DNA from: a virus
Length of the DNA stretch: 28,011 nucleotides
IMG/VR virus record: IMGVR_UViG_3300047678_000711
Location: 1-28,011 of that record
Strand: one strand, 5' to 3'
The first letter of the stretch is position 1; every line of letters starts with the position of its first letter. Both the position numbers and the translations under genes were made by a program. The notes under the pieces were generated by a model that made no database searches, had not been told where the DNA came from, and was given only the letters and a program-made list of their open reading frames with translations. Of this stretch, positions 8,361 to 25,896 are shown in pieces.

Positions 8361-9026
8361 TTAAACCTTTGGCGGATTAGGGCCTATGTTTTTAGGAGGT
8401 GTTGGCCCTGTATTTTTAGGAGGTGTTGATCCTGTATTTTTAGGCGTAATTGGTTTTGTGTTTACAGGAGGAGTTTGCTCAGCATCTTCAGATGGCGGAA
8501 GCGGTTTGTTTTTCAATGTATTTTGGTATTTTTTTGCCTTCCCAGGATCATAACTAGCAATTACTCTAGTCATTGCCGTATCTCTTGGGTTGTAACCAGG
8601 AAGGGGCCCATTAAACGGTCTGTCGGTTAACCACATTGTTTTAATATTTTTTACTTTAAACAATCTCCATTCATTTTCAGCTTCCGCAGTTCTAGATCCA
8701 GTAGCTCTTGCCTTTTTCTCTGATTGACCAACGATGTGATATCCTCTAACAACCATATCTCCGTTCTTATCAACGCCTATAGCTACAGGCCAAATAATTC
8801 TCGCTTTGGTGGTTGGCATCTTGTATTTCTTGTTATTTGATTGAAAGTTTATTCCAATTTCTTGGCCTTGCTGAATAGCATTTTTCATCATATCAAGATT
8901 AAAACTAACTCTGTTGGTACTTTTATTCATGATAGCACTTTTTGTGCTCATGTCCATAGCCTCATCTAAAGGCTTTATACCTGCTAGTTGTTGAATTCTC
9001 TTCTTATATGATTCACTTAATAACAT
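8361..9026 (-). CDS. Putative head-packaged protein with WYL-like core and Pro-rich repeat tail
   Basis: This 221-aa protein has three parts. Residues 1-23 are an amphipathic leader (ESYKKRIQQLAGI) ending in PLDE followed by Ala, which resembles a capsid-targeting segment with a prohead-protease site (Leu20-Asp21-Glu22). Residues about 75-165 (RIIWPVAIGVDKNGDMVVRG, EWRLFKVKNIKTMWLT, PGYNP) resemble the SH3-like WYL fold seen in some phage proteins. The last 35-40 residues are an 8-aa tandem repeat of the PKNTGxTP type. The gene stands alone on the minus strand with its own TATTTATT motif 5 nt before the start. A packaged or structural role is inferred from the leader and motif. Confidence 0.6.
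   Translation of the reverse strand: MLLSESYKKRIQQLAGIKPLDEAMDMSTKSAIMNKSTNRVSFNLDMMKNAIQQGQEIGINFQSNNKKYKMPTTKARIIWPVAIGVDKNGDMVVRGYHIVGQSEKKARATGSRTAEAENEWRLFKVKNIKTMWLTDRPFNGPLPGYNPRDTAMTRVIASYDPGKAKKYQNTLKNKPLPPSEDAEQTPPVNTKPITPKNTGSTPPKNTGPTPPKNIGPNPPKV
8380..8475. repeat. Four degenerate 24-bp tandem repeats encoding an 8-aa Pro/Lys/Asn/Thr/Gly unit
   Basis: Units begin at 8380, 8404, 8428 and 8452, each about CCTGTATTTTTAGGAGGTGTT-like on the plus strand. Units 1 and 2 are most alike, and units 3 and 4 have drifted. They lie in frame in the minus-strand gene and encode its flexible Pro-rich C-terminus. The spacing and coding frame exclude a CRISPR array. Confidence 0.85.
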
Positions 9027-9031
9027 TCGTT

Positions 9032-9050
9032 AATAAATATGCCCAAAAAA
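9032..9050 (-). promoter_or_regulatory. TATTTATT-type putative phage promoter for the minus-strand gene
   Basis: On the minus strand the sequence is TTTTTTGGGCATATTTATTA, with the TATTTATT box at 9032-9039, 5 nt from the ATG. It is nearly identical to the motifs at 22933-22951 and 16779-16797. The gap to the ATG is short, so the mRNA would be nearly leaderless if this is a -10-like element. Confidence 0.55.
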
Positions 9051-9074
9051 TCTTATTTTTCATCTGTTTTTTAT

Positions 9075-9082
9075 TATATTTG
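9075..9082 (+). promoter_or_regulatory. TATATTTG box (Bacteroidota -7 element) of the nuclease/helicase operon
   Basis: An exact TAnnTTTG match lies 23 nt before the ATG at 9106. The -33 region (around 9051-9055, tctta) is a poor match to TTTG, so the promoter may be weak or activator-dependent. It is the same core octamer as at 3111 and 21410. Confidence 0.6.
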
Positions 9083-9105
9083 TTTATAATAATACTCAGA
9101 TAGCT

Positions 9106-10014
9106 ATGGCAGATAAGAACGCAGAATATGATACTCTAAAAAAGGAGAATTCCGACAAGATACACATTAGCTTTAGTGAGTTTACATTATTTACCCAATG
9201 TGGTCATAGACATTTACTGGAAAAACACCTAGGAATATACAAACAACCACTATCTATTCATCTATTTTTTGGTAATGCAATACATGCAACAATTGAACTT
9301 TCCTTAAAAGAAAGCCTAACTCTCGAAAAAAGAATAAACCACTTTAAGGCGGTGTTTACAAAGGATATGTTAGATAACATGAAGGACACTGTAGATTTTA
9401 AAAATAACTTCCAAGATTTCCTCATACAAGGCGAAAACATATTAAAATTCTTAGACTTGAATAAAATACTTGACGAGTATGATTTAATTTCTGTCGAAGA
9501 GCCTTTGTACGAACAAGCTTATTCAAAATTTTACTTTAAAGGATTTATAGATCTTGTGTTAAGGCATAAAATAACAAAGCGTTATAAAATATTGGATTGG
9601 AAGACATCGGGTGAAGATTGGAATCTTAAATACAAACTTAAAGACGAAGCGTTTTTAGGACAAATGAGATTTTACAAATATTTTTGGTGTAGAAAAAACA
9701 ATGTTCCTTTAAGCGAAGTTGATTGTACATATGTTGTGTTAAATAGATTGAAGGACAAGAAAAATCCAAAATCTTTTCCAGGCAACATTCAAATTGTAGA
9801 TATTAATTCTACTGAAGGAGAGATACAAACATCTTTAAAAGAATTAGCAAAAGCCCTTAAAATGATCCATATTGATAAAACTTTCCCTAAAATAAAGTTC
9901 ACACTTGGAGACAGAGAAGGATGTAAGTTTTGTCCGCTTAAAGGAGGTAAACATCCTTTGTGTGACTCAACTGAGAGACAATATAAAAAATTATTAGTAG
10001 AACATAAAAAATAA
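9106..10014 (+). CDS. Cas4/RecB-like PD-(D/E)XK nuclease with Fe-S cluster cysteines
   Basis: This 302-aa protein has the full motif series of the PDDEXK_1/Cas4-RecB family. FFGNAIHATIE gives His60. FKGFIDLVL gives Asp149, YKILDWKTS gives Asp164 and Lys166, and QMRFYKY is the QxxxY motif (Gln186, Tyr190). Four cysteines arranged as in Fe-S AddB/Cas4 proteins flank the nuclease: Cys32 near the N-terminus and Cys273, Cys276 and Cys286 at the C-terminus (CKFCPLKGGKHPLC). Such enzymes are exonucleases on DNA ends. There are no cas1/cas2 genes or array nearby, so a CRISPR role is not suggested. It heads an operon with an SNF2-type helicase, pointing to recombination or DNA-end processing. Confidence 0.85.
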   Translation: MADKNAEYDTLKKENSDKIHISFSEFTLFTQCGHRHLLEKHLGIYKQPLSIHLFFGNAIHATIELSLKESLTLEKRINHFKAVFTKDMLDNMKDTVDFKNNFQDFLIQGENILKFLDLNKILDEYDLISVEEPLYEQAYSKFYFKGFIDLVLRHKITKRYKILDWKTSGEDWNLKYKLKDEAFLGQMRFYKYFWCRKNNVPLSEVDCTYVVLNRLKDKKNPKSFPGNIQIVDINSTEGEIQTSLKELAKALKMIHIDKTFPKIKFTLGDREGCKFCPLKGGKHPLCDSTERQYKKLLVEHKK

Positions 10015-10018
10015 AATT

Positions 10019-10435
10019 ATGGCATATTACAAAAAAGTAGAAATATTTTCATTTATGAAAGAAGCTCTAGAGAGAGCTAAAAAAAGTGAAATAACAATAG
10101 TTACAGACCCAGAAGAGGCTGCAAGATTATTGGGCGCTGACAGCGATTTGGTTGCTATGTTTTGGGTTGAACAAAATAAAGTAGAAGGAAGCGAAAATTT
10201 AAAACTTGACGTGGAAGGTAAATTATTTGTGAGAATAGATTTTGATTTATATTCTGACGATAGATATGCAATAGATTCTTATCAGGCCTGCAAAGAAGGA
10301 ACTACAGTTTCGGACATTGTTAAAAAAAGGGAAGCAGAAATCAAAGAAACAAAAAATAAATTATCAGAAGAAGAAGTTCAAAGAATTAAAACATCAGTAG
10401 AATCCAACGAATTGTTTATTAAAAAACCTGAATAA
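10019..10435 (+). CDS. Hypothetical protein in the nuclease/helicase operon
   Basis: This 138-aa acidic protein matches no family I know. Residues 20-85 look like a compact alpha/beta domain (ITIVTDPEEAARLLGA, then KLFVRIDFDLYSDD). Residues 100-130 form a charged helix. There are no transmembrane segments and a single Cys. It starts 4 nt after the nuclease stop and shares TAATG with the next gene, so expression is coupled within the DNA-processing operon. Confidence 0.65.
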   Translation: MAYYKKVEIFSFMKEALERAKKSEITIVTDPEEAARLLGADSDLVAMFWVEQNKVEGSENLKLDVEGKLFVRIDFDLYSDDRYAIDSYQACKEGTTVSDIVKKREAEIKETKNKLSEEEVQRIKTSVESNELFIKKPE

Positions 10436-10791
10436 TGAAATCAAAACCATATGATAGATTAACTCTTGGTGATTTAGAAAAACTGAAGAGTTGTAATGAG
10501 TTGGATATCTTATATAAGATAATAGATATTGCAACTAGCACAAAGAAAAGAACTGAAGAAATATTAGCCGACAACAAGCAGGCAGGCGTTGATGTTAGAA
10601 AGTCATTGCAGGATATAAAAATATTATCTGATGTAATGAGAGATAAAATACAGCTTAGAAAAAGCAAGTCTGAAGCAGGAAAAAACAGGTTGCATAAAGC
10701 TATAGATAACGAAAAAGAAAGAATTAAAAAAGAAGATGAAAAGATAAAGCGATTAGAAAAAAACAGACTAGAAAAGTCTAAGGTAAATTAA
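10435..10791 (+). CDS. Hypothetical basic coiled-coil protein
   Basis: This 118-aa, Lys/Arg-rich, almost wholly helical protein is not recognised. LTLGDLEKLKSCNELDILYK forms an N-terminal helical hairpin-like segment, and residues 75-118 are a Lys/Glu coiled coil. The start overlaps the previous stop in TAATG, and the stop is 1 nt before the helicase start. The net positive charge and operon suggest a nucleic-acid or helicase partner, as inference only. Confidence 0.65.
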   Translation: MKSKPYDRLTLGDLEKLKSCNELDILYKIIDIATSTKKRTEEILADNKQAGVDVRKSLQDIKILSDVMRDKIQLRKSKSEAGKNRLHKAIDNEKERIKKEDEKIKRLEKNRLEKSKVN

Positions 10792-10792
10792 T

Positions 10793-12727
10793 ATGGCAAA
10801 AAGTAAAAAAGACCCTACCACTAACAAATCAGTTGTAAATATAAGGAAGCTCAAAACAAATTATGAGTTGATATTTAATTACAATAAAATGCTTACAGAG
10901 TTTATTAAAACACTTCCAAAAGAACATAGAGGCGTTAGAGTAGATCATGTAATGAATTTAGAAGGTGTTCAAAAAGAAGAGTGGGTAAGGTTGGTCCGTG
11001 AGGTTGAGATGGGGAAGGTTATTAATTTTATGATAGATAATGGTATTGGATTTGAATTTAAAAACGTACCAGAAGATGATATAAACAAACTCAGACAAGA
11101 ATATTTACAAAGACAAAAAAGGCTTGCTGAGATATTAAGATTAAAAGGCGAAAAATTAATAGTTGACGGAGAGGATTATTCTTTTTTAAAACAAGCCCCT
11201 TATAACTACCAAAAACAAGCAGTAAAATTTTTTGAATTAAGCGATGGCAAGGCTATATTAGGAGATCAGCCAGGAGTTGGAAAGACATTGTCAGCTGTGG
11301 CATATGCAACAAAACACAGATATAGAACATTGGTTGTATGTCCATCTTCTCTTAAGCTTAATTGGAGAAAAGAAATAAACGATTTTACAAATGAAAAGAC
11401 TTTCGTTTACAAATACGTTCCCAAAAAAAGAAGCAAAGAAACAGCCTACAAAAAAGAAGAATCTTTGTTTCATGTTATAAATTATGAAGCCCTAGACTCT
11501 TATATAAAAATAGAATATAAACATAAATGTAAGGGTAAAAAAATTGTTCCAGGAAAGGGAATGGTAAATTGTGACTGCGAAATAATAGACCTTAATAAAA
11601 CACATAAAGAATGTCCTGTTTGTAAAAACAAAAAAACATTTAAGACATCATTTCATTCTTTGCAATATTTTAAAGATGCATTTGGAGAACATTTAGATCC
11701 AGAAGACTACGATTTAATTGTTGTGGATGAATTTCATAGAATTAAAGAGAAGAAAACAGGTTGGACTCAAATCATAGTTAAAGGCTTTAGAGACATTGTT
11801 AAACGTAAGATATTAATATCAGGTACAGCAATTAAAAGCAGGCCGTTTGAATTTTTTGTGGGCCTGAATTTTTTAAACAAAGATGATTGGAACAACTCAC
11901 ACGAATTTGGGGTTAGATATTGTGCTGGTTACGATAATAATTTTGGTTGGGATTATAGTGGTGTATCTAATTTAGAAGAACTCTTCACAAGGATATCAGG
12001 ATATTTCCTTAGAAGGCTAAAAAAAGACGTTTTAAAAGACCTTCCGCCAAAAACATATACTCACATACCTCTAGAACTTACCGATGCTGAATATAAAGAA
12101 TATGATAGTCTGGTAAAAGATTTTAAAAAGGTTGTAGACGGAGTTGAAAAAGAAGATACTTATTTAGCTAAAATAGCAAAACTGAAATTACTCACAGGTC
12201 GTTGTAAACTTAAAAGAGCTGTTGAATACATTCAGGACATAGTTGATAGTGGGGAAAAAATAGTTATAATGTCAGACCTACAAGAGCTTGCCGAAGAAAT
12301 ACACAAGCTGTTTCCAGACAACTCGGTTCTACACACAGGATCCATGAATGAAAATGATAAGTTTGAAGCTTATCAAAGATTTCAAAAAGATAAAAATATC
12401 AGAATATTCTCAGGTATGATTATGGCTTCAGGGGTTGGAATAAGCCTTACTGAAGCTAGCAGATTGATGTTTATAGGATTTGGTTGGACTCCAGGTGATA
12501 TGGAACAGGCCGAGGATCGTATACACAGAGCATCTACAATGCATGATAATATACAAATCATAACCCTTTATTGCACAGACACAATTGATGAGGATATTAT
12601 GGAATTGTTAGATGAAAAATCAGCAGTTGTATCTCAGGTTTTAGACAATACAATTGCCAAAAAAGATGTTACCAAATCTGATGAGAGCATATTTAGAGCC
12701 CTCATATCAAGATTGAAAGAGAAATAA
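10793..12727 (+). CDS. SNF2-type superfamily 2 helicase/ATPase with a Cys-rich insert
   Basis: The 644-aa protein contains a complete SF2 motor. A Q-motif-like APYNYQKQAV (about 135-144) precedes Walker A DQPGVGKT (158-165). DEFH (312-315) is motif II and LISGTAIKSRP (341-351) is motif III. The C-terminal RecA domain ends with QAEDRIHR (motif VI). The NYQ lead-in, DEFH box and HRAST/ITLYCTDTIDE ending match SNF2/SMARCAL1-like translocases, which remodel or anneal DNA and reverse forks. A possible zinc module (Cys246, Cys260, Cys262, Cys274, Cys277) is inserted between motifs Ia and II. In T4 a comparable remodelling job is done by UvsW, a different SF2 subgroup. It is the last gene before the terminator at 12753. 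Confidence 0.88.
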   Translation: MAKSKKDPTTNKSVVNIRKLKTNYELIFNYNKMLTEFIKTLPKEHRGVRVDHVMNLEGVQKEEWVRLVREVEMGKVINFMIDNGIGFEFKNVPEDDINKLRQEYLQRQKRLAEILRLKGEKLIVDGEDYSFLKQAPYNYQKQAVKFFELSDGKAILGDQPGVGKTLSAVAYATKHRYRTLVVCPSSLKLNWRKEINDFTNEKTFVYKYVPKKRSKETAYKKEESLFHVINYEALDSYIKIEYKHKCKGKKIVPGKGMVNCDCEIIDLNKTHKECPVCKNKKTFKTSFHSLQYFKDAFGEHLDPEDYDLIVVDEFHRIKEKKTGWTQIIVKGFRDIVKRKILISGTAIKSRPFEFFVGLNFLNKDDWNNSHEFGVRYCAGYDNNFGWDYSGVSNLEELFTRISGYFLRRLKKDVLKDLPPKTYTHIPLELTDAEYKEYDSLVKDFKKVVDGVEKEDTYLAKIAKLKLLTGRCKLKRAVEYIQDIVDSGEKIVIMSDLQELAEEIHKLFPDNSVLHTGSMNENDKFEAYQRFQKDKNIRIFSGMIMASGVGISLTEASRLMFIGFGWTPGDMEQAEDRIHRASTMHDNIQIITLYCTDTIDEDIMELLDEKSAVVSQVLDNTIAKKDVTKSDESIFRALISRLKEK

Positions 12728-12752
12728 TAGATAATTATTGTTTTACAGACAG

Positions 12753-12776
12753 AAAGCAGACTATTAAGTCTGCTTT
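12753..12776 (+). terminator. Rho-independent terminator after the helicase gene
   Basis: A perfect 10-bp stem, AAAGCAGACT (12753-12762) with AGTCTGCTTT (12767-12776), has an ATTA loop and is followed by TTT. It closes the nuclease/helicase operon 25 nt after the stop codon. Confidence 0.85.
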
Positions 12777-12803
12777 TTTATTGGTACCCAAATCAAATGT
12801 TTT

Positions 12804-12823
12804 AAAAAACTAGCATATTTATA
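12804..12823 (+). promoter_or_regulatory. TATTTATA-type putative phage promoter for the endolysin operon
   Basis: AAAAAACTAGCA precedes TATTTATA (box 12816-12823), 13 nt before the ATG. The GCATATTTATA core matches the homing endonuclease upstream motif. The upstream homopolymer is A rather than T here. Confidence 0.5.
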
Positions 12824-12836
12824 TGAAAATTGTATT

Positions 12837-13739
12837 ATGGCTAAATATGGAGATAAAGGACCTGAGGTTGCAGAAATTCAAAAATTACTATCTTTTTTGG
12901 GTTATGACCTAACTTCTGATGGTGAATTTGGCGATAAAACTTTGAGATCGCTAAAAGCCTTTCAAAAGAAAATGAATTTAGATGCTGACGGAGTAGCGGG
13001 GTCAAAAACAATAGAAGCATTAAAAGCTGCACAAAAAAGAACAGCAAAAGAAGATAAAAACCCGCCTCAGCCAAAAAATTACTCTGAGCTAGAGATTATA
13101 AAAACTTGTCAATTAGATATTTCCCAATACATTAAGCAAAGAACTGAAAAAGATAAAATTTTCATTCACTTTACAGCGGGGGGCCCAAATGCTCAAAACG
13201 TAATTAAATATTGGGACAAAGATGAACCAAGAGTTGCAACTGCTTATGTAATTGATGGTGGTAATGGCAAAGCTTATGAATGTTTTCACCCAGATTATTG
13301 GGCTTTCCACTTAGGTGTTAAAGGTACAAATGGCGCTTTAGATAAAAGTTCTGTTGGTATTGAAATTTGCTCATACGGGCCTCTAAAAGAGGTTGGTGGC
13401 AAGTTTTATGCTTGGCCTGCAGATTGGAAAACTGAAGTTTCTAAAGATAAAGTATACGAACTAAAAGAGGAATTTAGAGGTTTTAAATATTTTCAATCCT
13501 ACACACAAGATCAGTTAGATACAGTTGAGAAGTTATTAGAATTTTTAATAGAAGAGTATAATATTCCTGTTCAGAAATCATTTGATATGTCTTGGTTTGA
13601 ATTTAACGAAGATTTAATATCAAAGAAAACTCCTGGAATATGGACTCACACAAATGTTAGAAAAGACAAGTCTGATTCATACCCAGACCAAAGACTTTTA
13701 GACATGTTAAATAGGATAGCTACAAAATATAATACCTAA
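12837..13739 (+). CDS. Endolysin: N-acetylmuramoyl-L-alanine amidase with PG-binding domain
   Basis: This 300-aa lysis enzyme cleaves the amide bond between N-acetylmuramic acid and L-alanine in host peptidoglycan. Residues 1-66 form a PG_binding_1 domain (GDKGPEVAEIQKLLSFLGY, DGEFGDKTLRSLKAFQ, DGVAGSKT). A linker at 67-85 leads to an Amidase_2 domain (about 95-295). Its likely zinc ligands are His111 in FIHFTAGG, His271 in WTHTNVR and Asp280 in DSYPD; AFHLGV holds the conserved His158. There is no signal peptide, so a holin or spanin partner would be required for export. A putative late-type TATTTATA motif lies upstream. Two small genes follow in the same operon. Confidence 0.9.
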   Translation: MAKYGDKGPEVAEIQKLLSFLGYDLTSDGEFGDKTLRSLKAFQKKMNLDADGVAGSKTIEALKAAQKRTAKEDKNPPQPKNYSELEIIKTCQLDISQYIKQRTEKDKIFIHFTAGGPNAQNVIKYWDKDEPRVATAYVIDGGNGKAYECFHPDYWAFHLGVKGTNGALDKSSVGIEICSYGPLKEVGGKFYAWPADWKTEVSKDKVYELKEEFRGFKYFQSYTQDQLDTVEKLLEFLIEEYNIPVQKSFDMSWFEFNEDLISKKTPGIWTHTNVRKDKSDSYPDQRLLDMLNRIATKYNT

Positions 13740-13942
13740 TGACCGAAGCAGAAGTTAGAAAAATAGTTAAAAGCGTCCTAAGTGATGAGATGGATAAAAT
13801 CAAAACCATTAAGGATGATATTGCTAAAATTAAAAAAGATGCTTTAGCGGACGTAGATATTAAAAAAATTGTTAGGAAAATGATGATAAATCAATATAAG
13901 TGGATGTGGCAAAAATCTAGTACTTATATTAATCAAATATAA
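13739..13942 (+). CDS. Small hypothetical protein after the endolysin
   Basis: This 67-aa helical protein starts with AEVRKIVKSVLSDEM and ends with QYKWMWQKSSTYINQI. The N-terminal helix resembles the amphipathic leaders of the putative capsid-targeted proteins in this window, but there is no clean hydrophobic-X-Glu site before a small residue. The start shares TAATG with the endolysin stop. The Trp/Tyr-rich C-terminus could bind membrane or another virion protein. The function is unknown; there is no predicted transmembrane helix, so it is not an obvious holin. Confidence 0.6.
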   Translation: MTEAEVRKIVKSVLSDEMDKIKTIKDDIAKIKKDALADVDIKKIVRKMMINQYKWMWQKSSTYINQI

Positions 13943-13944
13943 AA

Positions 13945-14538
13945 ATGAACAAAGAAGCACTAATAGACATAATAAGAAAAAGCATTAAAGACGCACTTGT
14001 TTCAAAAGCTAAAGGCTTACACAATGATGCGGCCATTAAAAAAACAGATTCTTATGTAAACTCCGAAGAGATTACCGAGGATGATGTGGACTCTTTTTTA
14101 TTTTGGGGCGGAGGAGAAAAACCTAAAAAACAAAAAGCTAATAGAGCATTTACTATAAGAGAAAATATGGATAATAATGTAAAAATTACAACTTCTGAAA
14201 TTAAAGCCTTCGAATCAAGTTTTAAAGAAGTTCTAGACTCAATACAAGGGTCTACAATCGTATTTAACAAACAAAAAAATGGCTACTCTATAATAGCTAT
14301 TAAAAAACCAGACGGTATAGAAGCTATTGCTTCTGGAATTATTAATATGGGCTCTAGAGGCAAAATAACTTGGGCTTATTCATTAATGAATGGATTGACT
14401 GTAAATGGCCAAAACCTTAAAATATCAAACAGTAACAAAGGAATGCTAGAGGCTTTATTCAATCATTATGATGGATGGCAGAAGGATTGGAGAGAAAAAT
14501 TGAACTATCCACAAGCAGGTCCTACAGGAACTGAATAA
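13945..14538 (+). CDS. Hypothetical protein with amphipathic N-terminus
   Basis: In this 197-aa protein, residues 1-20 (ALIDIIRKSIKDALVSK) form an amphipathic helix resembling the leaders of other putative virion-internal proteins here, without an obvious cleavage Glu. A Gly/Lys-rich linker follows (FLFWGGGEKPKKQK). Residues 75-170 look like an alpha/beta domain (STIVFNKQKNGYSIIAIKKP, ASGIINMG). The tail ends NYPQAGPTGTE. It starts 2 nt after the previous stop and ends the endolysin operon. No family is recognised; late expression and structural association are plausible from context. Confidence 0.6.
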   Translation: MNKEALIDIIRKSIKDALVSKAKGLHNDAAIKKTDSYVNSEEITEDDVDSFLFWGGGEKPKKQKANRAFTIRENMDNNVKITTSEIKAFESSFKEVLDSIQGSTIVFNKQKNGYSIIAIKKPDGIEAIASGIINMGSRGKITWAYSLMNGLTVNGQNLKISNSNKGMLEALFNHYDGWQKDWREKLNYPQAGPTGTE

Positions 14539-14542
14539 AAAC

Positions 14543-14575
14543 TATTTATTTTATAAGCATGATTTAGTATATTTT
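14543..14575 (+). promoter_or_regulatory. Tandem TATTTATT and TATATTTT elements before the 14579 operon
   Basis: The 40-nt gap between operons holds TATTTATT (14543-14550, preceded by AAAAAC) and TATATTTT (14568-14575). The second ends 3 nt before the ATG. If it acts as a -7 box the mRNA is leaderless; if the first is used the leader is about 20 nt. The sequence cannot settle which is active. Confidence 0.45.
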
Positions 14576-14578
14576 TTC

Positions 14579-14872
14579 ATGGATCATACAATTCAGCAAA
14601 TAATTGAAAATCAGCAGAAATATAAACAAGAAATAATTGGTTTTCTAAAAGGTGAGTTGGCAGATTTAGTAAAAGAATTATCAGGGATTAAAACAAACGA
14701 TCAGTACATAATAGCAGAAAAAGACAAGTTAAAGAAAAAATTAAGTCAGGTTAAATTAGTAAAAAGCATAGACTCATTTTTTTTCTTATCTAAAAAAAGA
14801 AGTGAAGAATATTATGCATGGTGGGACGGAAATTTACAAGAAGTAATTATATTAAATTATGGCAAAAAATAG
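14579..14872 (+). CDS. Hypothetical small helical protein
   Basis: In this 97-aa protein, residues 1-60 are helical and rich in Gln, Lys and Glu, probably a short coiled coil. The C-terminal 35 residues (FFFLSKKRSEEYYAWWDGNL) are aromatic-rich. No family is recognised. Its end overlaps the next gene by 14 nt, indicating a compact operon of three unknown genes. The start lies 3 nt after a TATATTTT box, as in the primase gene. Confidence 0.6.
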   Translation: MDHTIQQIIENQQKYKQEIIGFLKGELADLVKELSGIKTNDQYIIAEKDKLKKKLSQVKLVKSIDSFFFLSKKRSEEYYAWWDGNLQEVIILNYGKK

Positions 14873-15335
14873 AAAAAATACAATACCAATTCTAATTGAT
14901 ATAAGATACGCTTTATCAATTAATAGTTTTGAGGAGTTTTACGGAGACTGCGTAACTTATGCTGAAATAGAGCAAGAAAGTTATATTGACCTAAAAGGTA
15001 TGGTTTTTGAAAAGATAAATCCTGAAATAAAATTCAGGAAATTCAATAGAGAAAAAAATACTTTAACCGTAAGAGCTGATATGTTCGATAAAGAATTTAA
15101 ACTATTTAAAGATATATTAGAAGGTAATGTGGTTAATCAAAAAGCAACAAAAGACAAGAAAAATAATCCTAGCGGAGAACCAATAAAAGAACGCTTTAGC
15201 TTTTTTCATAATTGGAAGATTTCTAGTGTAAAAATAATGACAAAAGAAGACCTTCTGAAATGTAAAAAAGTAATACAAGAAGACGAAATGGAAGAGTTTG
15301 AAAATTATAGCTCTAGAACTGAAGAAGAATTTTAA
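14859..15335 (+). CDS. Hypothetical protein, alpha/beta
   Basis: This 158-aa protein starts inside the previous gene in another frame, at an ATG after aaatt. It contains alternating strands and helices (IPILIDIRYALSINSFEEFY, ENTLTVRADMF-like segment near 70-85) and an acidic C-terminus (EEFENYSSRTEEEF). It has no Cys motif, nucleotide-binding motif or membrane helix. It may work with the flanking genes, whose function is also unknown. Confidence 0.6.
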   Translation: MAKNRKNTIPILIDIRYALSINSFEEFYGDCVTYAEIEQESYIDLKGMVFEKINPEIKFRKFNREKNTLTVRADMFDKEFKLFKDILEGNVVNQKATKDKKNNPSGEPIKERFSFFHNWKISSVKIMTKEDLLKCKKVIQEDEMEEFENYSSRTEEEF

Positions 15336-15346
15336 ATAAAAATAAT

Positions 15347-16240
15347 ATGGAACAAAATATGACAGTAGAGCAAATTAATGCTATACGACAACAAAGACAA
15401 CAAAGATTTCAACAAATGGGTGTAAGCAACGCAGGCCAAATGATGAACGAAAGCACTGTGTCTAATGGTGGCAAAACTAATTTGAATATCTTACAAAAGA
15501 TACAGCAAATAAAAAGCGGAGCAGCCAGACAAGAGTTAAGTAAATTCGTAAATGCAACAGCAAAACCTGGTACATTGCCTGGAATTGCAGGATTTGAAGA
15601 AATTCCTGTTTCTAAGCCTAAAGGTCAAAACAGGAATCCAAACATGCAACAAAAAGCGGTGGATCCTAGTTTTAAGGTTGAATTAGACAGTTTCAAGTCT
15701 AATGCTTCTCATGTTGATAATTCTGAATTATCAATGATTGATGCTATGTTTGCTGGCGGTGGCGGTGGCGGAGGTAGAATGAGCCCTCAACAGCTTGGGT
15801 TTGACAATGGTCAACCTTTTATGCAACAAAGAGGGCAGAATACTCAATTGGATTTGGATAGTACTTTAAATCAAATGCCAAGCTTTAATCCTGCTAATGC
15901 TCTAAATAGAGCCAAAGCTAAAGCTGCGAATGGCCATAACCCTGAATATTTAAAGTTTGCACAGTCAAACCCTGCAGGAAATCCAGAAGACTATATGGAT
16001 CCTAGCCTAACACATCAATTTAATAATATGGGTATTACCCCTGCTATGAAAATAATGATGGAAACTATAGCTAAAACTATGGCTGAACAAACTATTAGAA
16101 AAGTATTAAGTGAATTCACAGAACAAAAACAACAACAAAACAAGAATACTTTCGAAGTTTATAATAAAGACCAAAATATTATTAAGACAAGTGACGGTAA
16201 GTTATATAAAATAACACCAGTTCAGGTGAAGAAAAAATAA
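15347..16240 (+). CDS. Hypothetical Gln/Asn-rich protein with poly-Gly tract; possible virion assembly factor
   Basis: This 297-aa low-complexity protein has a Gln/Arg-rich start (INAIRQQRQQRFQQMG) and a run of eight Gly near residue 140 followed by RMSPQQ. A long disordered Asn/Pro/Gln region follows. The C-terminal helix AEQTIRKVLSEFTEQKQQQ leads to a compact basic tail (GKLYKITPVQVKKK). The composition and many short repeats suggest a scaffold, chaperone or internal virion protein rather than an enzyme. The IRKVLSEF helix resembles leaders of other proteins here but is internal. It ends exactly at the boundary of the convergent HNH gene. Confidence 0.6.
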   Translation: MEQNMTVEQINAIRQQRQQRFQQMGVSNAGQMMNESTVSNGGKTNLNILQKIQQIKSGAARQELSKFVNATAKPGTLPGIAGFEEIPVSKPKGQNRNPNMQQKAVDPSFKVELDSFKSNASHVDNSELSMIDAMFAGGGGGGGRMSPQQLGFDNGQPFMQQRGQNTQLDLDSTLNQMPSFNPANALNRAKAKAANGHNPEYLKFAQSNPAGNPEDYMDPSLTHQFNNMGITPAMKIMMETIAKTMAEQTIRKVLSEFTEQKQQQNKNTFEVYNKDQNIIKTSDGKLYKITPVQVKKK

Positions 16241-16729
16241 TTATAATTCACCCCACTCAAACTTACTTGTAAAGATAACTTTCACCCTACTATGTAATGG
16301 TAGGGTGTTTTCTTTTAGTTGAATTGCATATTCTTCAGGAGTTATTTTTAAAACCCTGATGCTCCCATCTTTTAAATGTTCATGAGTCCTATTGTGTCTG
16401 CATATTTCTATTAAACTCTTTTGGGTAAAAGTAGAGTTTACAACCATCACCCAGCCTTCAGCAATAGCTTTGTCTATGTGTTGGGTTGTATGACAAGCTT
16501 TGCATAAAGAAACAAAAGACGAATTTTCAAGATCTCTTTCATTTTCCTCGATTAAATGAAGAAAAAGATTTCTTGCTCTGTATTGGCAACCTCGACAACA
16601 ATTTTCATCTCTTTCAAAAGTGGCAGATTGTATCTTTTTTTTAACTTCTTGTGAATTTGGGCCAAATTTTAAAAAAAAGTCTTTTTCCGATATTGATATC
16701 TTAGGTTTTAGTTCAAAGCTCATAAGCAC
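16241..16729 (-). CDS. HNH-fold zinc protein (putative HNH endonuclease)
   Basis: This 162-aa protein has a zinc-stabilised HNH core: CCRGC (Cys44/45, Cys48), then His58 in LFLHLIEENERD, then LCKACHTTQH (Cys76, Cys79, His80, His84). The second half (STFTQKSLIEICRHNRTHEH, then EYAIQL) is not a known DNA-binding tail such as AP2 or NUMOD. It could be a homing endonuclease or a resident phage nuclease. The gene is alone on the minus strand with zero spacing to the convergent gene end and has its own TATTTATT motif. The HNH fold is supported; catalytic competence and target are not shown. Confidence 0.7.
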   Translation of the reverse strand: MLMSFELKPKISISEKDFFLKFGPNSQEVKKKIQSATFERDENCCRGCQYRARNLFLHLIEENERDLENSSFVSLCKACHTTQHIDKAIAEGWVMVVNSTFTQKSLIEICRHNRTHEHLKDGSIRVLKITPEEYAIQLKENTLPLHSRVKVIFTSKFEWGEL

Positions 16730-16749
16730 AAATTTACAACAAATTTAGG

Positions 16750-16757
16750 AATAAATA
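16750..16757 (-). promoter_or_regulatory. TATTTATT-type putative phage promoter for the HNH gene
   Basis: On the minus strand, AATTTTGC precedes TATTTATT, 20 nt before the ATG at 16729. It shares an 84-nt gap with the divergent plus-strand motif at 16779-16797. Confidence 0.5.
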
Positions 16758-16778
16758 GCAAAATTACCAAACTTTTAC

Positions 16779-16797
16779 TTTTTTGGTATATTTATTA
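16779..16797 (+). promoter_or_regulatory. TATTTATT-type putative phage promoter for the 16814 gene
   Basis: TTTTTTGGTATATTTATTA, with the TATTTATT box at 16789-16796, lies 17 nt before the ATG. It is one of the four best matches to the T-run, GG, TATTTAT layout. An overlapping TATATTTA also resembles a degenerate Bacteroidota -7 box. Confidence 0.55.
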
Positions 16798-16813
16798 ATA
16801 AAACAAACATATT

Positions 16814-17485
16814 ATGGCTACAGAAAAATTAAATCTTAAAGACCTTCAAAAAATTATCATAGCTGAAGCTGAGAAGCTTATGAGCTTAGGTGATCCTATG
16901 GATGTTGATATGAACCAAAATGACAATAAACTTGGTAATTCTAAGGGAGATTCATTGGTTGGATCAAAAGAAAATGGTGGTTTTGAAAAGAAGAGTTCGG
17001 CTCCTAAAGCTGCTAAAAACATTGAAGACACTGAAGAGCCTTTAGATGTTGATATGAACGAAATGGACAGTGACCAAGGTCATGATGAAAAAATTGCTGC
17101 AGCTGTTAAGGTTGATGCAACTAGTTCTAAGAAAAGTGGTCCTTCTACATCAGGTCAAGCTAATGCTAAATTTGATTCCAAAAAAGAAAATCCATCTGTT
17201 GGTTCATCTGAACCTTTCGAAGACAGAAAGACAAAAGTTGAGATGAATTCTCAAGATAAAACAGAAGACACTGGCGCTAAAACTTATGTTGAAGCTGGTT
17301 CTGAATTGAAAAAAGGAGCTAGTACTGGTCAAGCGAAAGCTGATTGGTCAGAAAAGGCTAAAAACGAAAAAGAAAAAGCTGAAGCTATTGCAAAAGGTAT
17401 TCAACTTCCAGAGAGCTTTAAAAATAAAGCTGAACTTTTAAACTTCATTAGCGAGCAAGCAAAAAAAGTTTCTAGTTTAATCTAA
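16814..17485 (+). CDS. Putative internal head protein with capsid-targeting leader
   Basis: This 223-aa, highly charged protein lacks Cys, Trp repeats and membrane segments. Residues 5-19 (KLNLKDLQKIIIAEA) are amphipathic and contain Ile16-Ala17-Glu18 followed by Ala, closely resembling the T4 internal-protein leader QEFIAEA cut by the prohead protease. Two copies of a PxDVDMN motif (about residues 27-37 and 75-85) form an internal repeat. The rest is disordered Lys/Glu/Ser/Ala-rich sequence, with a C-terminal helix ELLNFISEQAKKVSSLI. It is a monocistronic unit between a TATTTATT motif and a strong terminator. An internal or scaffold head role is inferred; an unrelated acidic chaperone is the alternative. 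Confidence 0.6.
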   Translation: MATEKLNLKDLQKIIIAEAEKLMSLGDPMDVDMNQNDNKLGNSKGDSLVGSKENGGFEKKSSAPKAAKNIEDTEEPLDVDMNEMDSDQGHDEKIAAAVKVDATSSKKSGPSTSGQANAKFDSKKENPSVGSSEPFEDRKTKVEMNSQDKTEDTGAKTYVEAGSELKKGASTGQAKADWSEKAKNEKEKAEAIAKGIQLPESFKNKAELLNFISEQAKKVSSLI

Positions 17486-17507
17486 TAATCTTTTAAATAA
17501 TTTATAG

Positions 17508-17536
17508 AAAAACCAAGGTCAAAAGCCTTGGTTTTT
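17508..17536 (+). terminator. Rho-independent terminator after the 16814 gene
   Basis: An 11-bp perfect stem, AAAAACCAAGG (17508-17518) with CCTTGGTTTTT (17526-17536), has the loop TCAAAAG and continues into TT. The A-rich 5' arm would also allow partial function on the opposite strand. Confidence 0.88.
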
Positions 17537-17550
17537 TTGTTTGTATTAAC

Positions 17551-17558
17551 TATATTTC
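17551..17558 (+). promoter_or_regulatory. TATATTTC box (near-consensus Bacteroidota -7 element)
   Basis: TATATTTC differs from TAnnTTTG at the last base and lies 19 nt before the ATG at 17578. CTTG sits 20 nt upstream (17527-17530), inside the 3' arm of the preceding terminator hairpin. It is a plausible start for the 17578-19937 operon. Confidence 0.45.
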
Positions 17559-17577
17559 TTTAAATATAAAAACAGAC

Positions 17578-19569
17578 ATGATTTTAAATAAAAACCAAGT
17601 ATTAGAAGATTTCTCTTTTGTTGAAAATAACACCAAAAATGGCGCTTCTTATTTGTGTTCATGCGGACATAAATTTAATATAGAAAGCAAAGATACTGAA
17701 CTAAAACAAGAACTAGCAGAAGCTAACAAAGCAGTTAGTGATATCATGAAAAATGATAGTGAGTTTATGGGCGAGTTTGGCGATCTATATAAAAACGTCA
17801 ACATGTCAATGGAAGAAAAGATTGAATGCCCTAGTTGCAAAAAAAGCTTCCTTAAAGAAGAGAATAGACAAAAGCTAATAACAAAGGATGTTTATTTTGT
17901 GTCTGGTTTTAAATTAGAAGATGACGAAAAAGACATTACAATATATTATTCAAAAATAAAGTTTGATTATATTAAAGATGACTTTAGTTTTATTGAAGAA
18001 TATAAATACATAAAGCTTAACAAAAAAACAAAATTACTTTCATTTAAAGATTATGAAGGAGAAGAAGTTGAGTTCGATTTGGATGAAATTGTAAAATTTG
18101 TTGATTTGTTTTTAGAAACAGACTCTAAAGTTGTTTATAATGCATTTGACTTACATAATTTTATTGGAGCACTCACAAGCCAAATAGTAGACAGCAAAAG
18201 TATCGATATAACAAATGACATGTTAAGTCTTATTAGAAATAGGCATAACGATCTAGGATTAGATGTTATTAAAAAAGTTATAATCATATTTTTAGGGATG
18301 ATCAAGTATTCTAATTTATCTACAATAGCGATGACAAAAGGTCCTATGTTTTTGTACGACATGATGATTCAGTGTAAACTCCCAAAACCACAAGTCTTAA
18401 TAGAGAACAAAGTTACTTCTCCAATAAAAATATTTAATTTCCTTGCTCAAAATTATGTTAGTGAACTAAGCAAAGAAATTAATTTAGAAGATAAAGAAAC
18501 TAAAGAGTTCTCTTACAAGTCAAAACAAATGACAGAGTTTGAATTGGTTAAAGACAGCGAGGGGAATGTTGTTGTAAACAAAGATGGTACAGCCGCAACA
18601 ACAGTTAAAGTGACTGACACAGAAGAAGAAAAAACACTCAACATAAACATAAAAAACAATAAAAATTACAAAGCTGGTAAAGTAAAAGATATTGGGTCTG
18701 GATATGGGGTATTGGATGCTATCGAAGATGGAACTGTATCTAAGTTTATTTTTAATAACATAAAAAAATTCACAGATTACCAATATATAATAAAGTATTT
18801 TAAAATTGTAAATAAGCAAGAGCTTATAGTTTTAATGCAAAAATATGATTTAGATTTTTTAGCAAGCGTAATTGATTTATTATACTTCAGAGATAAGACA
18901 GATTTTAAAGAATTGCAAAGAATACTTGATTTAATGATAGACTACACAAATGTACAAAATAGTTTACCAACAGTGTTTAGTGCTGTCGAAAAGTCTAAAT
19001 ACGAGTGTTTAAAAAACTTTGAATTTATTCCTTATGATGATTCTTTAATGATGATGACGGTTCTTAAATTTGACAAAAAAAGACATTTTGAAAAAATAAA
19101 AACCTGGAAAGAACTAAACGAATACCATGACAATTTAGTTAAGTATTTCAAAACAGTTAAAGATGAAGAAAAAAATGGAGATATCGGAAGCTTCGTTTCT
19201 CAATTTGCTTTCCTTGAGGACAGAACTAATTATGACGGACCGCTTAAAATAGTTTTGCTTTCCACTCCTGCAATGATTATACAAGAGGGTATTCAGTTAA
19301 GACATAGTGGAGCTGCTTATGCTAAAAACGTAGCATCTAGAACTTATTTAATGGGTCAAGTTTTTGACAATGACACAAACAGAGCTGAAGGTGAACTTAT
19401 AAGATACACAATAGGATTTAAATACGACAAACACAAAGGTCTTGTGTTTGATCAAGTTAAGGGATTCGCCAATCAGACAGGAAGTAATAGATTTAAACAG
19501 CTTGTTATGGACTGGTTACAACTTAAAGATATATCATTCCAGCCTATTAAAGATCTTAAAATAGAATAA
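17578..19569 (+). CDS. Large hypothetical protein with Cys zinc motif and possible PcfJ-like C-terminus
   Basis: In this 663-aa protein, two Cys pairs near the N-terminus (Cys27, Cys29 in CSCGHKF; Cys84, Cys87 in CPSCKKSF), separated by a helix, look like a split zinc ribbon. The middle (about 130-550) is helical and unrecognised. The C-terminal region (about 572-655: LRHSGAAYAKNVASRTYLMG, then IRYTIGFKYD, then VKGFANQTGSNRF) resembles the PcfJ-like pattern in which a His/Cys-Gly-x-Tyr segment precedes a strand pair and a Gly/Asn-rich loop. The similarity is weak and the Cys of that motif is Ser577 here. It shares TAATG with the next gene. Confidence 0.55.
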   Translation: MILNKNQVLEDFSFVENNTKNGASYLCSCGHKFNIESKDTELKQELAEANKAVSDIMKNDSEFMGEFGDLYKNVNMSMEEKIECPSCKKSFLKEENRQKLITKDVYFVSGFKLEDDEKDITIYYSKIKFDYIKDDFSFIEEYKYIKLNKKTKLLSFKDYEGEEVEFDLDEIVKFVDLFLETDSKVVYNAFDLHNFIGALTSQIVDSKSIDITNDMLSLIRNRHNDLGLDVIKKVIIIFLGMIKYSNLSTIAMTKGPMFLYDMMIQCKLPKPQVLIENKVTSPIKIFNFLAQNYVSELSKEINLEDKETKEFSYKSKQMTEFELVKDSEGNVVVNKDGTAATTVKVTDTEEEKTLNINIKNNKNYKAGKVKDIGSGYGVLDAIEDGTVSKFIFNNIKKFTDYQYIIKYFKIVNKQELIVLMQKYDLDFLASVIDLLYFRDKTDFKELQRILDLMIDYTNVQNSLPTVFSAVEKSKYECLKNFEFIPYDDSLMMMTVLKFDKKRHFEKIKTWKELNEYHDNLVKYFKTVKDEEKNGDIGSFVSQFAFLEDRTNYDGPLKIVLLSTPAMIIQEGIQLRHSGAAYAKNVASRTYLMGQVFDNDTNRAEGELIRYTIGFKYDKHKGLVFDQVKGFANQTGSNRFKQLVMDWLQLKDISFQPIKDLKIE

Positions 19570-19937
19570 TGTCTCTTAAAAAACACATTTTCATATATGA
19601 CAAAGATAATTGTCTCAACACTTATGCCGAACTTTCAAGTAAAGACAAATTGATCGGTTATTATTTTCTAGAAAATAACCAACTGACAAAAGTTAACATA
19701 TATAAAGAGAAAAAAGCTCTGCATACCAAAAGGACGATTGTCGTTTTTGATGAAGATGTAAAACTTAACCACATGTTTCTTGATGGCTTTGGCAGTAGGG
19801 TAGTTGCTGTTAAAAGGCATGTTATGAGAATAGAAACTCCTGTAGTAAAAAATCGAATAGAAACTCTTGATAATGAAAGTTTTAACAGATTTACTGTAAA
19901 GTCAGACATTATCAATTCCTGGCTAGATAAGCTATAA
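19569..19937 (+). CDS. Hypothetical beta-rich protein following the large zinc-motif protein
   Basis: In this 122-aa protein, alternating strands (KHIFIYDKDN, LIGYYFLENN, TIVVFDEDVK, SRVVAVKRHVMRIET) suggest a small beta domain with a helical end (SDIINSWLDKL). No family is recognised. The TAATG overlap with the preceding stop implies translational coupling and probably a stoichiometric partner of that protein. No terminator hairpin was seen before the next operon. Confidence 0.6.
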   Translation: MSLKKHIFIYDKDNCLNTYAELSSKDKLIGYYFLENNQLTKVNIYKEKKALHTKRTIVVFDEDVKLNHMFLDGFGSRVVAVKRHVMRIETPVVKNRIETLDNESFNRFTVKSDIINSWLDKL

Positions 19938-19954
19938 ACATTATTTTTTCCCTC

Positions 19955-19962
19955 TATTTATT
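19955..19962 (+). promoter_or_regulatory. TATTTATT-type putative phage promoter for the 19978 operon
   Basis: TTTTTTCCCTC precedes TATTTATTAATAAAA, 15 nt before the ATG. The downstream sequence TATTTATTAATAAAA is identical to that at 16789-16803. Confidence 0.55.
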
Positions 19963-19977
19963 AATAAAATCTTTCTA

Positions 19978-20448
19978 ATGAAAATAAAAGATTATTATTT
20001 AAACCTTTTAAGCGAAGGCAAGGAGGATTTCTACCACGTAGATTCAAATTCTATTGGCGAAATTGACGATGTGAATATTTCAAGAGAGTTTAATTTTGTA
20101 AAAATAGATTTCACAACTACATATGGCAAGCCAAGCAGTGTTGTTGTTAATTACGATGATTTTTTAAAGTGGTATTCGCAAAACAAAGAAAGCAAAAATG
20201 CATTTAAAGATTACATCAGCGCTTTTGTAGGTAACTCTAAAGAATCTGAGCCTTTCTTGTCAACAATGAATGAAATAGTTGATGACAATGGAAATATTAT
20301 GGCTAGTACAGATTTGCCTAATAATTCCACTAACACAATGGTTGGAAGCAAGCTTAAATGGGATTTAGAAAAAGTTTATAAACAATCTGTTCCTAAGGGA
20401 ATTAGATTCTATTCAGGAGACATGGGTCTTGGGATTATTACTTGGTAA
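19978..20448 (+). CDS. Hypothetical protein with capsid-targeting-like leader
   Basis: This 156-aa protein begins KIKDYYLNLLSEG, in which Leu11-Ser12-Glu13 followed by Gly matches a T4-type prohead-protease site after an amphipathic helix. The mature part has strands (FNFVKIDFTTTYG, SSVVVNYDDF) and a helical middle; it ends FYSGDMGLGIITW. No enzyme motif is present. It is the first gene of a putative late operon with two further short genes, one of which (20927) has a similar leader. Virion-internal location is inferred from the leader and motif. Confidence 0.55.
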   Translation: MKIKDYYLNLLSEGKEDFYHVDSNSIGEIDDVNISREFNFVKIDFTTTYGKPSSVVVNYDDFLKWYSQNKESKNAFKDYISAFVGNSKESEPFLSTMNEIVDDNGNIMASTDLPNNSTNTMVGSKLKWDLEKVYKQSVPKGIRFYSGDMGLGIITW

Positions 20449-20459
20449 ATAAAAAATTT

Positions 20460-20927
20460 ATGGAAAAGAAAAACGAAAACGATAGAATGAGACAGCTTGT
20501 TAAGGCCTTTGAAAAAAAGGACGAAATATTTGCTGACAAAAAAGATAATGTAAATGAAGAACTTCTATCTTCAGAATACAAACGTTTAAAAGCTTTAGGA
20601 TCAGGAAAATTGAATGCTGATTTTAAAGAAAATTACGGTATTTCAAACGATTTTGGCTTAGGCGGCCAAGGAATGACTGTTAATAGCATGGTGAACAACA
20701 TGTACGATAACTCTCCTGTGGCATTTAAGGCGATTAAACAACCCTTAAAGACAGAAGAGGCCTTAGACATTGCCATAAAAAGAACTATTGAATCTGGGGC
20801 TCCTGTAAACAACTTAGACTTCTATGATGAAGTAAATTTGAACCTAACCAATTTAGGTTTCCCATCTAGACTCCCTTTGGATATCAAAACAAAATTGGTA
20901 TCTATGATTGTTAAAGACAAAGAATAA
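20460..20927 (+). CDS. Hypothetical protein in the putative late operon
   Basis: This 155-aa protein is counted from the ATG at 20460, which follows taaataaaaaattt; a TTG six codons upstream is open but overlaps the previous gene and is a less likely start. Residues 1-50 are Lys/Glu-rich helix. The middle is Gly/Asn-rich (NDFGLGGQGMTVNSM), and the C-terminus is helical (EEALDIAIKRTIESGAPV). No family is recognised. It shares TAATG with the following gene. Confidence 0.6.
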   Translation: MEKKNENDRMRQLVKAFEKKDEIFADKKDNVNEELLSSEYKRLKALGSGKLNADFKENYGISNDFGLGGQGMTVNSMVNNMYDNSPVAFKAIKQPLKTEEALDIAIKRTIESGAPVNNLDFYDEVNLNLTNLGFPSRLPLDIKTKLVSMIVKDKE

Positions 20928-21385
20928 TGATTAGAAAAGTTATAAGACAAATTCTTGAAGAGGCTATTGGCGATTTTAATTATAACAAAACATTTACGCC
21001 TCCATATGATGTAGTATCTGCATGCAAAGCCGCCATGGCCAAAGGAGGATCTAAATTAGAAAAAGCTGTTGAATTATCTAGCAGCAAACCTCAAACATTC
21101 CAACAAGTAAAAAAACTAAGAGATTTTTTTAACAAAAACTTAGAAAATGTTAATAAAATAAAAGCTCACACACTCCAAGATGATAAGCTTATGCAGTCAT
21201 GGAATTTACATGGCGGAGACGCTGGTAAAAGATGGGCTGACGGAGTGATGTCTAAATTCCACGATTCAAGCATGAGAACCAAAAGCAACTTAAGAAAAGC
21301 GGGCGGTGCTGGAGATAAAAAAGGAATGGGTATTTTTGACACTAGCATTATGGACACCAACAAAGGAAGAAATAATATCAGATAA
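20927..21385 (+). CDS. Hypothetical basic protein with capsid-targeting-like leader
   Basis: In this 152-aa protein, residues 1-13 (MIRKVIRQILEEA) form an amphipathic helix with Leu10-Glu11-Glu12 followed by Ala, consistent with a prohead-protease site. The body is basic. The C-terminal 60 residues (LMQSWNLHGGDAGKRWADGV, then LRKAGGAGDKKGMGIFDTS) form a distinctive Gly/Lys/Asp-rich segment that looks conserved but is not assignable by me. The basic charge would suit contact with packaged DNA. It is last in the 19978 operon. Confidence 0.55.
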   Translation: MIRKVIRQILEEAIGDFNYNKTFTPPYDVVSACKAAMAKGGSKLEKAVELSSSKPQTFQQVKKLRDFFNKNLENVNKIKAHTLQDDKLMQSWNLHGGDAGKRWADGVMSKFHDSSMRTKSNLRKAGGAGDKKGMGIFDTSIMDTNKGRNNIR

Positions 21386-24759: not shown

Positions 24760-24777
24760 TTAATAATAATACTAAAC

Positions 24778-24804
24778 AAAATCCACCTCAAAAGGGTGGA
24801 TTTT
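24778..24804 (+). terminator. Rho-independent terminator after the 596-aa protein gene
   Basis: The stem AAAATCCACC (24778-24787) with GGTGGATTTT (24795-24804) has the loop TCAAAAG and is followed by TT. The loop sequence is the same as in the 17508 terminator. Confidence 0.87.
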
Positions 24805-24816
24805 TTATTTTACTTT

Positions 24817-24839
24817 TATTTATAAATCCTATATATTTC
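24817..24839 (+). promoter_or_regulatory. TATTTATA and TATATTTC elements before the 24858 operon
   Basis: TATTTATA (24817-24824) is followed by TATATTTC (24832-24839), 18 nt before the ATG. TTTT occurs 20 nt upstream of the second box. Either or both could drive the operon. Confidence 0.45.
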
Positions 24840-24857
24840 CTATACAATAATGCTATT

Positions 24858-25622: not shown

Positions 25623-25624
25623 CC

Positions 25625-25885
25625 ATGATCAGCAGAGAATTTGTAATAGATAGAAAATTATTTTTAAAGAGAAAATTAACCATCCTTCAGCATAAGCTTA
25701 GAGTGGTTATGAAGTGTTATACAGTAGTAAATTTTAAATTAGACGCAGAAAACAAGTTCACATTCCAAAAATGTTACAGAGTTAATAAAATAAGAATTGA
25801 CGATCCAACCATAAATTCAGGTAAATATTCTGCAGAAGAGATACCAACAACAGACAAGATATTGTTGAAAATTTTTGTTGATTAG
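25625..25885 (+). CDS. Small basic hypothetical protein
   Basis: This 86-aa, Lys/Arg-rich protein has a helical N-terminus (DRKLFLKRKLTILQHKLRVV) and strands after it (VVNFKLDAENKFTFQKCYRV). Two Cys (in KCY twice) are isolated and do not form a zinc motif. It lies between the Lys-tailed protein and the PcfJ-like gene in one operon (2 nt and 11 nt spacing). The function is unknown. Confidence 0.55.
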   Translation: MISREFVIDRKLFLKRKLTILQHKLRVVMKCYTVVNFKLDAENKFTFQKCYRVNKIRIDDPTINSGKYSAEEIPTTDKILLKIFVD

Positions 25886-25896
25886 TCAACCGACCA

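Follow-up and report, generated by a model that had tools for sequence, protein, structure and literature searches.

Four genes of the virus studied here very probably encode late proteins with capsid-targeting leaders, which a gp21-type protease would cut after a hydrophobic-x-Glu (φ-x-E) end while the body of the protein is kept in the head; cleavage, packaging and injection are inferred. The window, i.e. the whole stretch of 28,011 bp that was analysed, is a complete IMG/VR record and represents a 28-kb genome fragment of a large uncultured bacterial virus. The leaders and their ends, their conservation, the late promoter, the protease and capsid genes of relatives and the scaffold-tail motif can all be read in the sequences, and comparison with relatives lends support to the capsid-targeting function proposed in a preliminary description of this DNA. 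Virion presence, cleavage and injection have not been shown for the window virus, where targeting and retention are likewise inferences. Judged by their signatures, the window leaders belong to a device that is widespread: φ-x-E ends, linkage to the late promoter and recurrence on unrelated bodies are found in relatives as well.

All four open reading frames and leaders listed in the preliminary description were recovered in the sequence (Table 1). Its notion of a shared leader held in part: the four leaders are present, but they are not a single homologous sequence and fall into three types, namely LAG in 8361(−), LR/II-x-E in 16814 and 20927, and a short T4-like type in 19978. Predicted leader lengths of 12, 13, 18 and 22 residues meet the expectation of about 10–20 for a T4-type propeptide, and the ends LEE, LSE, IAE and LDE meet the cleavage motif of T4 gp21, L/I-X-E (PMC9026906). 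Leader 1 has a second φ-x-E at LLSE/S (E5). The bodies behind the leaders are unrelated, as had been noticed, and none of the four window proteins matched a Pfam or PHROG family. The start of the operon gene at 20487 is uncertain, its frame being open from TTG 20442 with ATGs at 20460 and 20487.

Table 1. Leader genes, predicted leaders and late-promoter elements in the window.
Feature	Position	Strand	Remarks
Leader protein 1	8361..9026	−	221 aa; LAG-type leader and folded body (model); orthologs in six relatives
Leader 1, MLLSESYKKRIQQLAGIKPLDE/A	8961..9026	−	predicted cut after E22
TATTTAT of leader gene 1	9033..9039	−	13 nt upstream; putative late-promoter element
Leader protein 2	16814..17485	+	223 aa; hydrophilic, low-complexity body; orthologs in four relatives
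Leader 2, MATEKLNLKDLQKIIIAE/A	16814..16867	+	predicted cut after E18
TATTTAT of leader gene 2	16789..16795	+	25 nt upstream; putative late-promoter element
Leader protein 3	19978..20448	+	156 aa; orthologs in four relatives
Leader 3, MKIKDYYLNLLSE/G	19978..20016	+	predicted cut after E13
TATTTAT of leader gene 3 and its operon	19955..19961	+	23 nt upstream; putative late-promoter element
Operon gene between leader genes 3 and 4	20487..20927	+	from ORF list; similar neighbour in G004 and G006
Leader protein 4	20927..21385	+	152 aa; last gene of the 19978 operon
Leader 4, MIRKVIRQILEE/A	20927..20962	+	predicted cut after E12

Neither an S77/gp21-type protease nor a capsid gene occurs in the 28-kb window, so the evidence had to be sought in relatives. 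A genome without any prohead protease would refute the proposal, but this objection cannot be applied to a window that is only a 28-kb fragment. Relatives were found in IMG/VR via the SbcCD-like gene and other genes of the window: G001 (91–95% identical), G018, G002/G003, G004/G005, and two larger ones, the 372-kb contig G006 (helicase 59% identical) and the 222-kb contig G007. Genes of unannotated contigs were taken from a simple ORF caller, and some starts may be wrong. In G005 both an S77 protease (PF03420, E 5e-31) and a capsid protein of the gp23 type (PF07068, E 9e-73) are encoded. The protease also occurs in G006 and G007 and in the majority of the other MCP relatives, and in those relatives that reach the head genes it adjoins the gp23-type capsid gene. 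The capsid protein gp23 of T4 is cut at FLTE/A; this site aligns with MLNE/V of the clade and with LISE/A, LLKE/A and IVSE/A of outgroups, and is conserved as φ-φ-x-E. From this alignment the clade protease most likely has the same cleavage specificity as T4 gp21. The propeptide of T4 gp23 comprises 65 residues (PMC5694885).

Some further features of these genomes were recorded. In the window, a possible fifth leader protein is encoded at 15347-16240(+), with a conserved φ-x-E at residue 35 (GVSNAGQMMNE/STVSN; GIKNAGQMVTE/TTVAG in G018 and GVPNAGNILKE/SAVGG in G004). Directly 3′ of leader gene 16814 lies a gene for a PcfJ-like protein (17578-19569(+); Pfam E 1.5e-4, below the curated cut-off), whose relative in G006 has the same gene order. 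The SbcCD-like gene of G004 and G005 (L009, L010) is about 1 kb longer and is split over three frames, a pattern that the insertion of an intron or a homing gene would give. By this gene the nearest annotated phage is Mel-JY01, which was tried and set aside: protease and scaffold tail are both present, but LR leaders are not in excess there. In LR756508 (W02), the S77 domain matched twice in one 574-aa frame (156480-158204), which may mean that the protease gene is duplicated or interrupted.

How far do the leader ends exceed chance? Ends of the form φ-x-E-[AG], with E at residues 8–25, occur in 6 of 35 window genes against 2.1 expected (P=0.017), so the set first described stands just modestly above the chance level. 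Retention in orthologs is more telling. When the presence of φ-x-E-[AGSN] at residues 8–30 was scored for each ortholog, the four leader genes ranked within the top five of 29 window gene families, with retention of 5/5, 4/6, 3/5 and 3/5, the internal rate being 0.135. This test replaced a strict column-by-column one, which detected no conserved φ-x-E at residues 6–32 (0 in 864 columns) because leader lengths drift between orthologs.

The residue at P3 is hydrophobic in nearly all orthologs of the four leaders. Including the window, the 8361 family ends in LDE/A, LDE/A, LKE/V, LKE/A, LSE/A, ITE/E and IVE/S, and E5, R10, A15 and G16 are invariant in the leader alignment. The ends IAE/A, ISE/A, VQTE/A and IQTE/A were found for 16814, with E18-A19 invariant in all five aligned sequences; P3 is Gln in two orthologs, which counts against the capsid-targeting reading. 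In 19978, φ-x-E plus a small residue is kept in 5/5 (LSE/G, LNE/N, LSE/N, LLE/S, LRE/S). The 20927 family ends in LEE/A, LNE/N, VCE/I, LFE/S and ISE/D, and its G006 ortholog carries the consensus leader MKSFLRKIIKEQINLLFE/S.

The preliminary description had linked the TATTTAT motif to the leader genes. It does stand directly upstream of three of the four, but it is not specific to them and is better described as a general late promoter. The fourth gene, 20927, belongs to the operon of 19978, as was stated: it directly follows 20487-20927 and has no TATTTAT of its own, the motif being absent upstream of it in 4/4 genomes examined. Within 45 nt upstream, TATTTAT occurs in 10/35 window genes against 0.6 expected. 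Its total in the window is ordinary (24 vs 19.8 expected); the idea that the motif is uninformative on this ground was dropped, as its position relative to gene starts is informative. It is kept in 17/17 orthologs of the three genes, at −12 to −16 in all 7 for 8361, at −24 to −26 in 4/5 for 16814 (−46 from the chosen start in G004) and at −22 to −29 in 5/5 for 19978.

In G005–G007 the motif lies no more than 70 nt upstream of the genes for protease (3/3), scaffold (3/3), tail tube (3/3), capsid (2/3) and sheath (1/3), 12/15 head and tail genes in total, and before only 3/31 orthologs of five replication genes. Among leader genes chosen by protein sequence alone, 18/22 in G006 (P=2e-8) and 19/22 in G007 (P=5e-9) have it, together 37/44, against about 23% of other genes. 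Frequent before head and tail genes and rare before replication genes, TATTTAT is, as far as its distribution can tell, a real late-promoter element common to virion genes. Late expression with the head genes is thereby inferred for three leader genes from the conserved element, without RNA data.

The large relatives were searched with an N-terminus model of 16 columns, trained on G006 and G007 and used at a score cut-off of ≥10. It detected 54 genes in G006 (3.4–3.8 expected), 38 in G007 (1.2–1.7 expected) and, outside the training set, 28 in the 484-kb huge phage LR756508 (2.6–4.6 expected). Its yield was close to the chance level in Mel-JY01, T4, phage G and Rhodothermus phage RM378, and also in LR756501, of which the first 300 kb were scanned. 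The underlying motif search was overfitted and was used only via scores calibrated against internal and shuffled segments. An LR-type regular expression covering the first nine positions served as an independent anchor; it was written after some leaders had been seen and excluded the Glu position. In LR756508 this anchor has 28 N-terminal copies against 14 among 100,892 internal residues. Offset 14 is Glu, preceded by hydrophobic residues, in 57% of N-terminal copies compared with 14% of internal ones, and Glu is likewise enriched after the anchor in G006 and G007, at offsets 10 and 13. In LR756508, 21/28 leader genes lie within 140–220 kb, around the protease and capsid genes (P=2e-13). A MAFFT alignment of 77 leader proteins gave a consensus in the leader only, MxxxxxxLRxxIxExxxxxxxE, at a mean column identity of 5%.

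LR-type leaders were also observed on genes for CCA-adding type tRNA nucleotidyltransferases in G006 (282860-284263(−)) and G007 (185588-186760(+)), which hints at a head-packaged tRNA repair enzyme, and on a GH108 lysozyme-like protein in G007 (24756-25886(−)).

The LAG class was followed by scanning IMG/VR with a DNA pattern encoding MQ[KE]LAGIIxE. Among the matches listed, 63 of 80 readable ones start at residues 6–15 of an ORF, and 72 proteins with LAG leaders fall into at least 55 unrelated body clusters. The few copies outside N-termini among these matches include the C-termini of scaffold genes, SNNRDLLKEAIADAK...ENAAFARMQKLAGIIKEN. The gene between protease and capsid ends alike in G005 (RRNRQLAGIDKLEEN), G006 (KRRKVLAGIEKNEDYI) and G007 (RRMRMLAGIVKPINE), and comparable scaffold C-termini were found in immuto (VSRWQKLAGIIK), Mel-JY01 (VERMKKLAGIVK), LR756508 (MKSRMQKLADIS), RM378 (LERIKRLAGL) and PA5oct (VEELRRLAGIK); a LAG-type scaffold tail is absent in T4 and S-PM2. 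Immuto is a cultured Flavobacterium phage that also encodes an S77 protease and has two LAG leaders (MKKQILSEQF.RMQ.LAGIITE/S); its scaffold ends in WQKLAGIIK. The 8361(−) leader LLSESYKKRIQQLAGIKPLDE matched the G005 tail LYESAEARRNRQLAGIDKLEE better than 500/500 shuffles, and in G007 LAG leaders make up 5 of the 6 best N-terminal matches to the scaffold tail. Some pairs show only a weak similarity that is not significant, such as the scaffold tails of G005 and G006 compared with the leaders of their own genomes. Searched by tblastn against cultured phages, the 8361 leader gave no match and the immuto leader matched only immuto's own phages.

This resemblance suggests targeting by copying of a docking peptide. 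The LAG leaders probably dock at the scaffold's own binding site, which cargo would then occupy; this inference is the least certain step. We are inclined, though only slightly, to believe that in a large T4-like jumbo-phage clade tens of unrelated proteins per virion are loaded by a modular cleavable leader that copies the scaffold's docking tail. A literature search, which did not cover most subscription journals, found no description of scaffold-tail-like leaders or of such an expansion. Three proteins (L242, L273, L274) combine both leader classes, LR-type at the N-terminus and LAG close to the C-terminal end, and L253 has C-terminal MQKLAGI variants.

An analogy is offered by the cultured Pseudomonas phage PA5oct, whose virion proteome has been deposited. 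Leader-like N-termini are present in 13/93 genes positive by ESI-MS/MS and in 14/304 others (P=0.003), a modest enrichment; because the rule was fixed after a few hits had been seen to be MS-positive, it is supporting evidence and not proof. The leaders detected include MKIKDILVE/S (gp246) and MKINDIITE/G (gp333), both resembling leader 3 of the window, and MFNINDILRLAGVQAVKE/S (gp281). The virion proteins gp246, gp247, gp281 and gp333 have, as in the window, short leaders ending in φ-x-E, and the scaffold ends in LRRLAGIK, a tail like that of the clade. However, PA5oct has far fewer leader genes, and processing is unreported in its annotation. Far from the PA5oct head cluster, at 180349-181020, a further gene (gp212) bears the annotation head maturation protease.

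The closest known system is that of T4, where IPI–IPIII and Alt have a capsid-targeting sequence cut by gp21 at L/I-X-E (PMC9026906). The likeness extends to an N-terminal amphipathic leader of 10–20 residues with an L/I-x-E end, similar leaders before unrelated bodies, late expression, and an S77 protease with a gp23-type capsid, here in the relatives of the window. In contrast to T4, the leaders are of LR, LAG and MKIKD types, the relatives have tens of such genes per genome and not a handful, and the LAG class resembles a scaffold C-terminal tail that T4 gp22 does not have. To our knowledge, the partner of capsid targeting in T4 has been described only as the core. Inner-body and ejection proteins of phiKZ and SPN3US, processed at S/A-X-E (PMC5694885), are similarly numerous head-internal proteins whose propeptides are removed after Glu by a gp21-like protease; however, the propeptides mostly exceed 100 residues, P3 is Ser/Ala and not hydrophobic, and no gp22-like scaffold has been confirmed. 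In phage P1, N-terminal residues of DarB direct a reporter into the capsid (PMC9024508). This is also N-terminal targeting of defence-related, injected proteins, but in another head lineage and with no φ-x-E leader family described.

Could the leader proteins be scaffold-like components of the prohead core, which are degraded and leave the head, and not injected cargo? T4 gp67 and gp68 are core components of this kind that are chopped up and exit the head. We regard this as possible but doubtful. The 16814 protein may belong to the core and not to the cargo, since it is hydrophilic and of low complexity and its C-terminus, too, bears a leader-like helix; small genes adjoining the protease can likewise have LR-type leaders. 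Yet 8361 and 19978 are modelled by AlphaFold2 as folded domains after the leader. The 19978 model has a helix at residues 3–13, whose end coincides with the predicted cut; after a linker follows a folded body, confident from about residue 20, and residues 1–18 are modelled with low confidence. For 8361 a small α/β domain is predicted (pLDDT 67), whose best PDB matches, PafBC (E 5.6e-4) and DriD, are both WYL-domain proteins; at a low TM-score, this WYL-like likeness of the model is weak. Leader genes are moreover scattered genome-wide in G006 and G007, and the leaders on enzymes, two tRNA nucleotidyltransferases and one GH108 lysozyme, favour cargo over a disposable core.

It is rather improbable that these N-terminal helices serve in membrane or nucleoid targeting or in oligomerisation, with φ-x-E incidental in Glu-rich amphipathic helices. 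Such a short signature is common in Lys/Glu-rich proteins, the excess in the window alone is weak, and some LR-type helices (13945) have no clear site; but the Glu lies at a fixed offset after hydrophobic residues, unlike in internal copies of the same helix, the LAG class is common to scaffold tails, and leader genes are linked with the late promoter. That four of 35 genes merely happen to bear such N-termini is hardly credible: the low window count leaves some room for it, but ortholog retention, the 5–15 fold excess in large relatives and one leader on at least 55 unrelated bodies strongly disfavour it.

We thus prefer to read the four genes as encoding late-made proteins whose N-terminal leaders would function like the capsid-targeting sequences of T4 internal proteins. 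The leader would be an amphipathic helix docking on the assembling prohead, either core or shell, and in the LAG class (8361(−) and many proteins of relatives) it would probably do so by copying the scaffold C-terminal tail [RK]..(L)AGI. A protease of the gp21 (S77) type, whose gene would lie elsewhere in this genome, would cut after φ-x-E, and the body left inside the head would presumably be ejected with the DNA. If this is true, the first 20 residues would flag head cargo among the many unknown genes of a huge phage and yield, from a large pool of unknown genes, a list of candidates for injected proteins that can be tested, while capsid-targeting sequences in this clade would compete for the docking site of the scaffold. 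If the leader is indeed modular, any gene could become head cargo by gaining about 20 codons.
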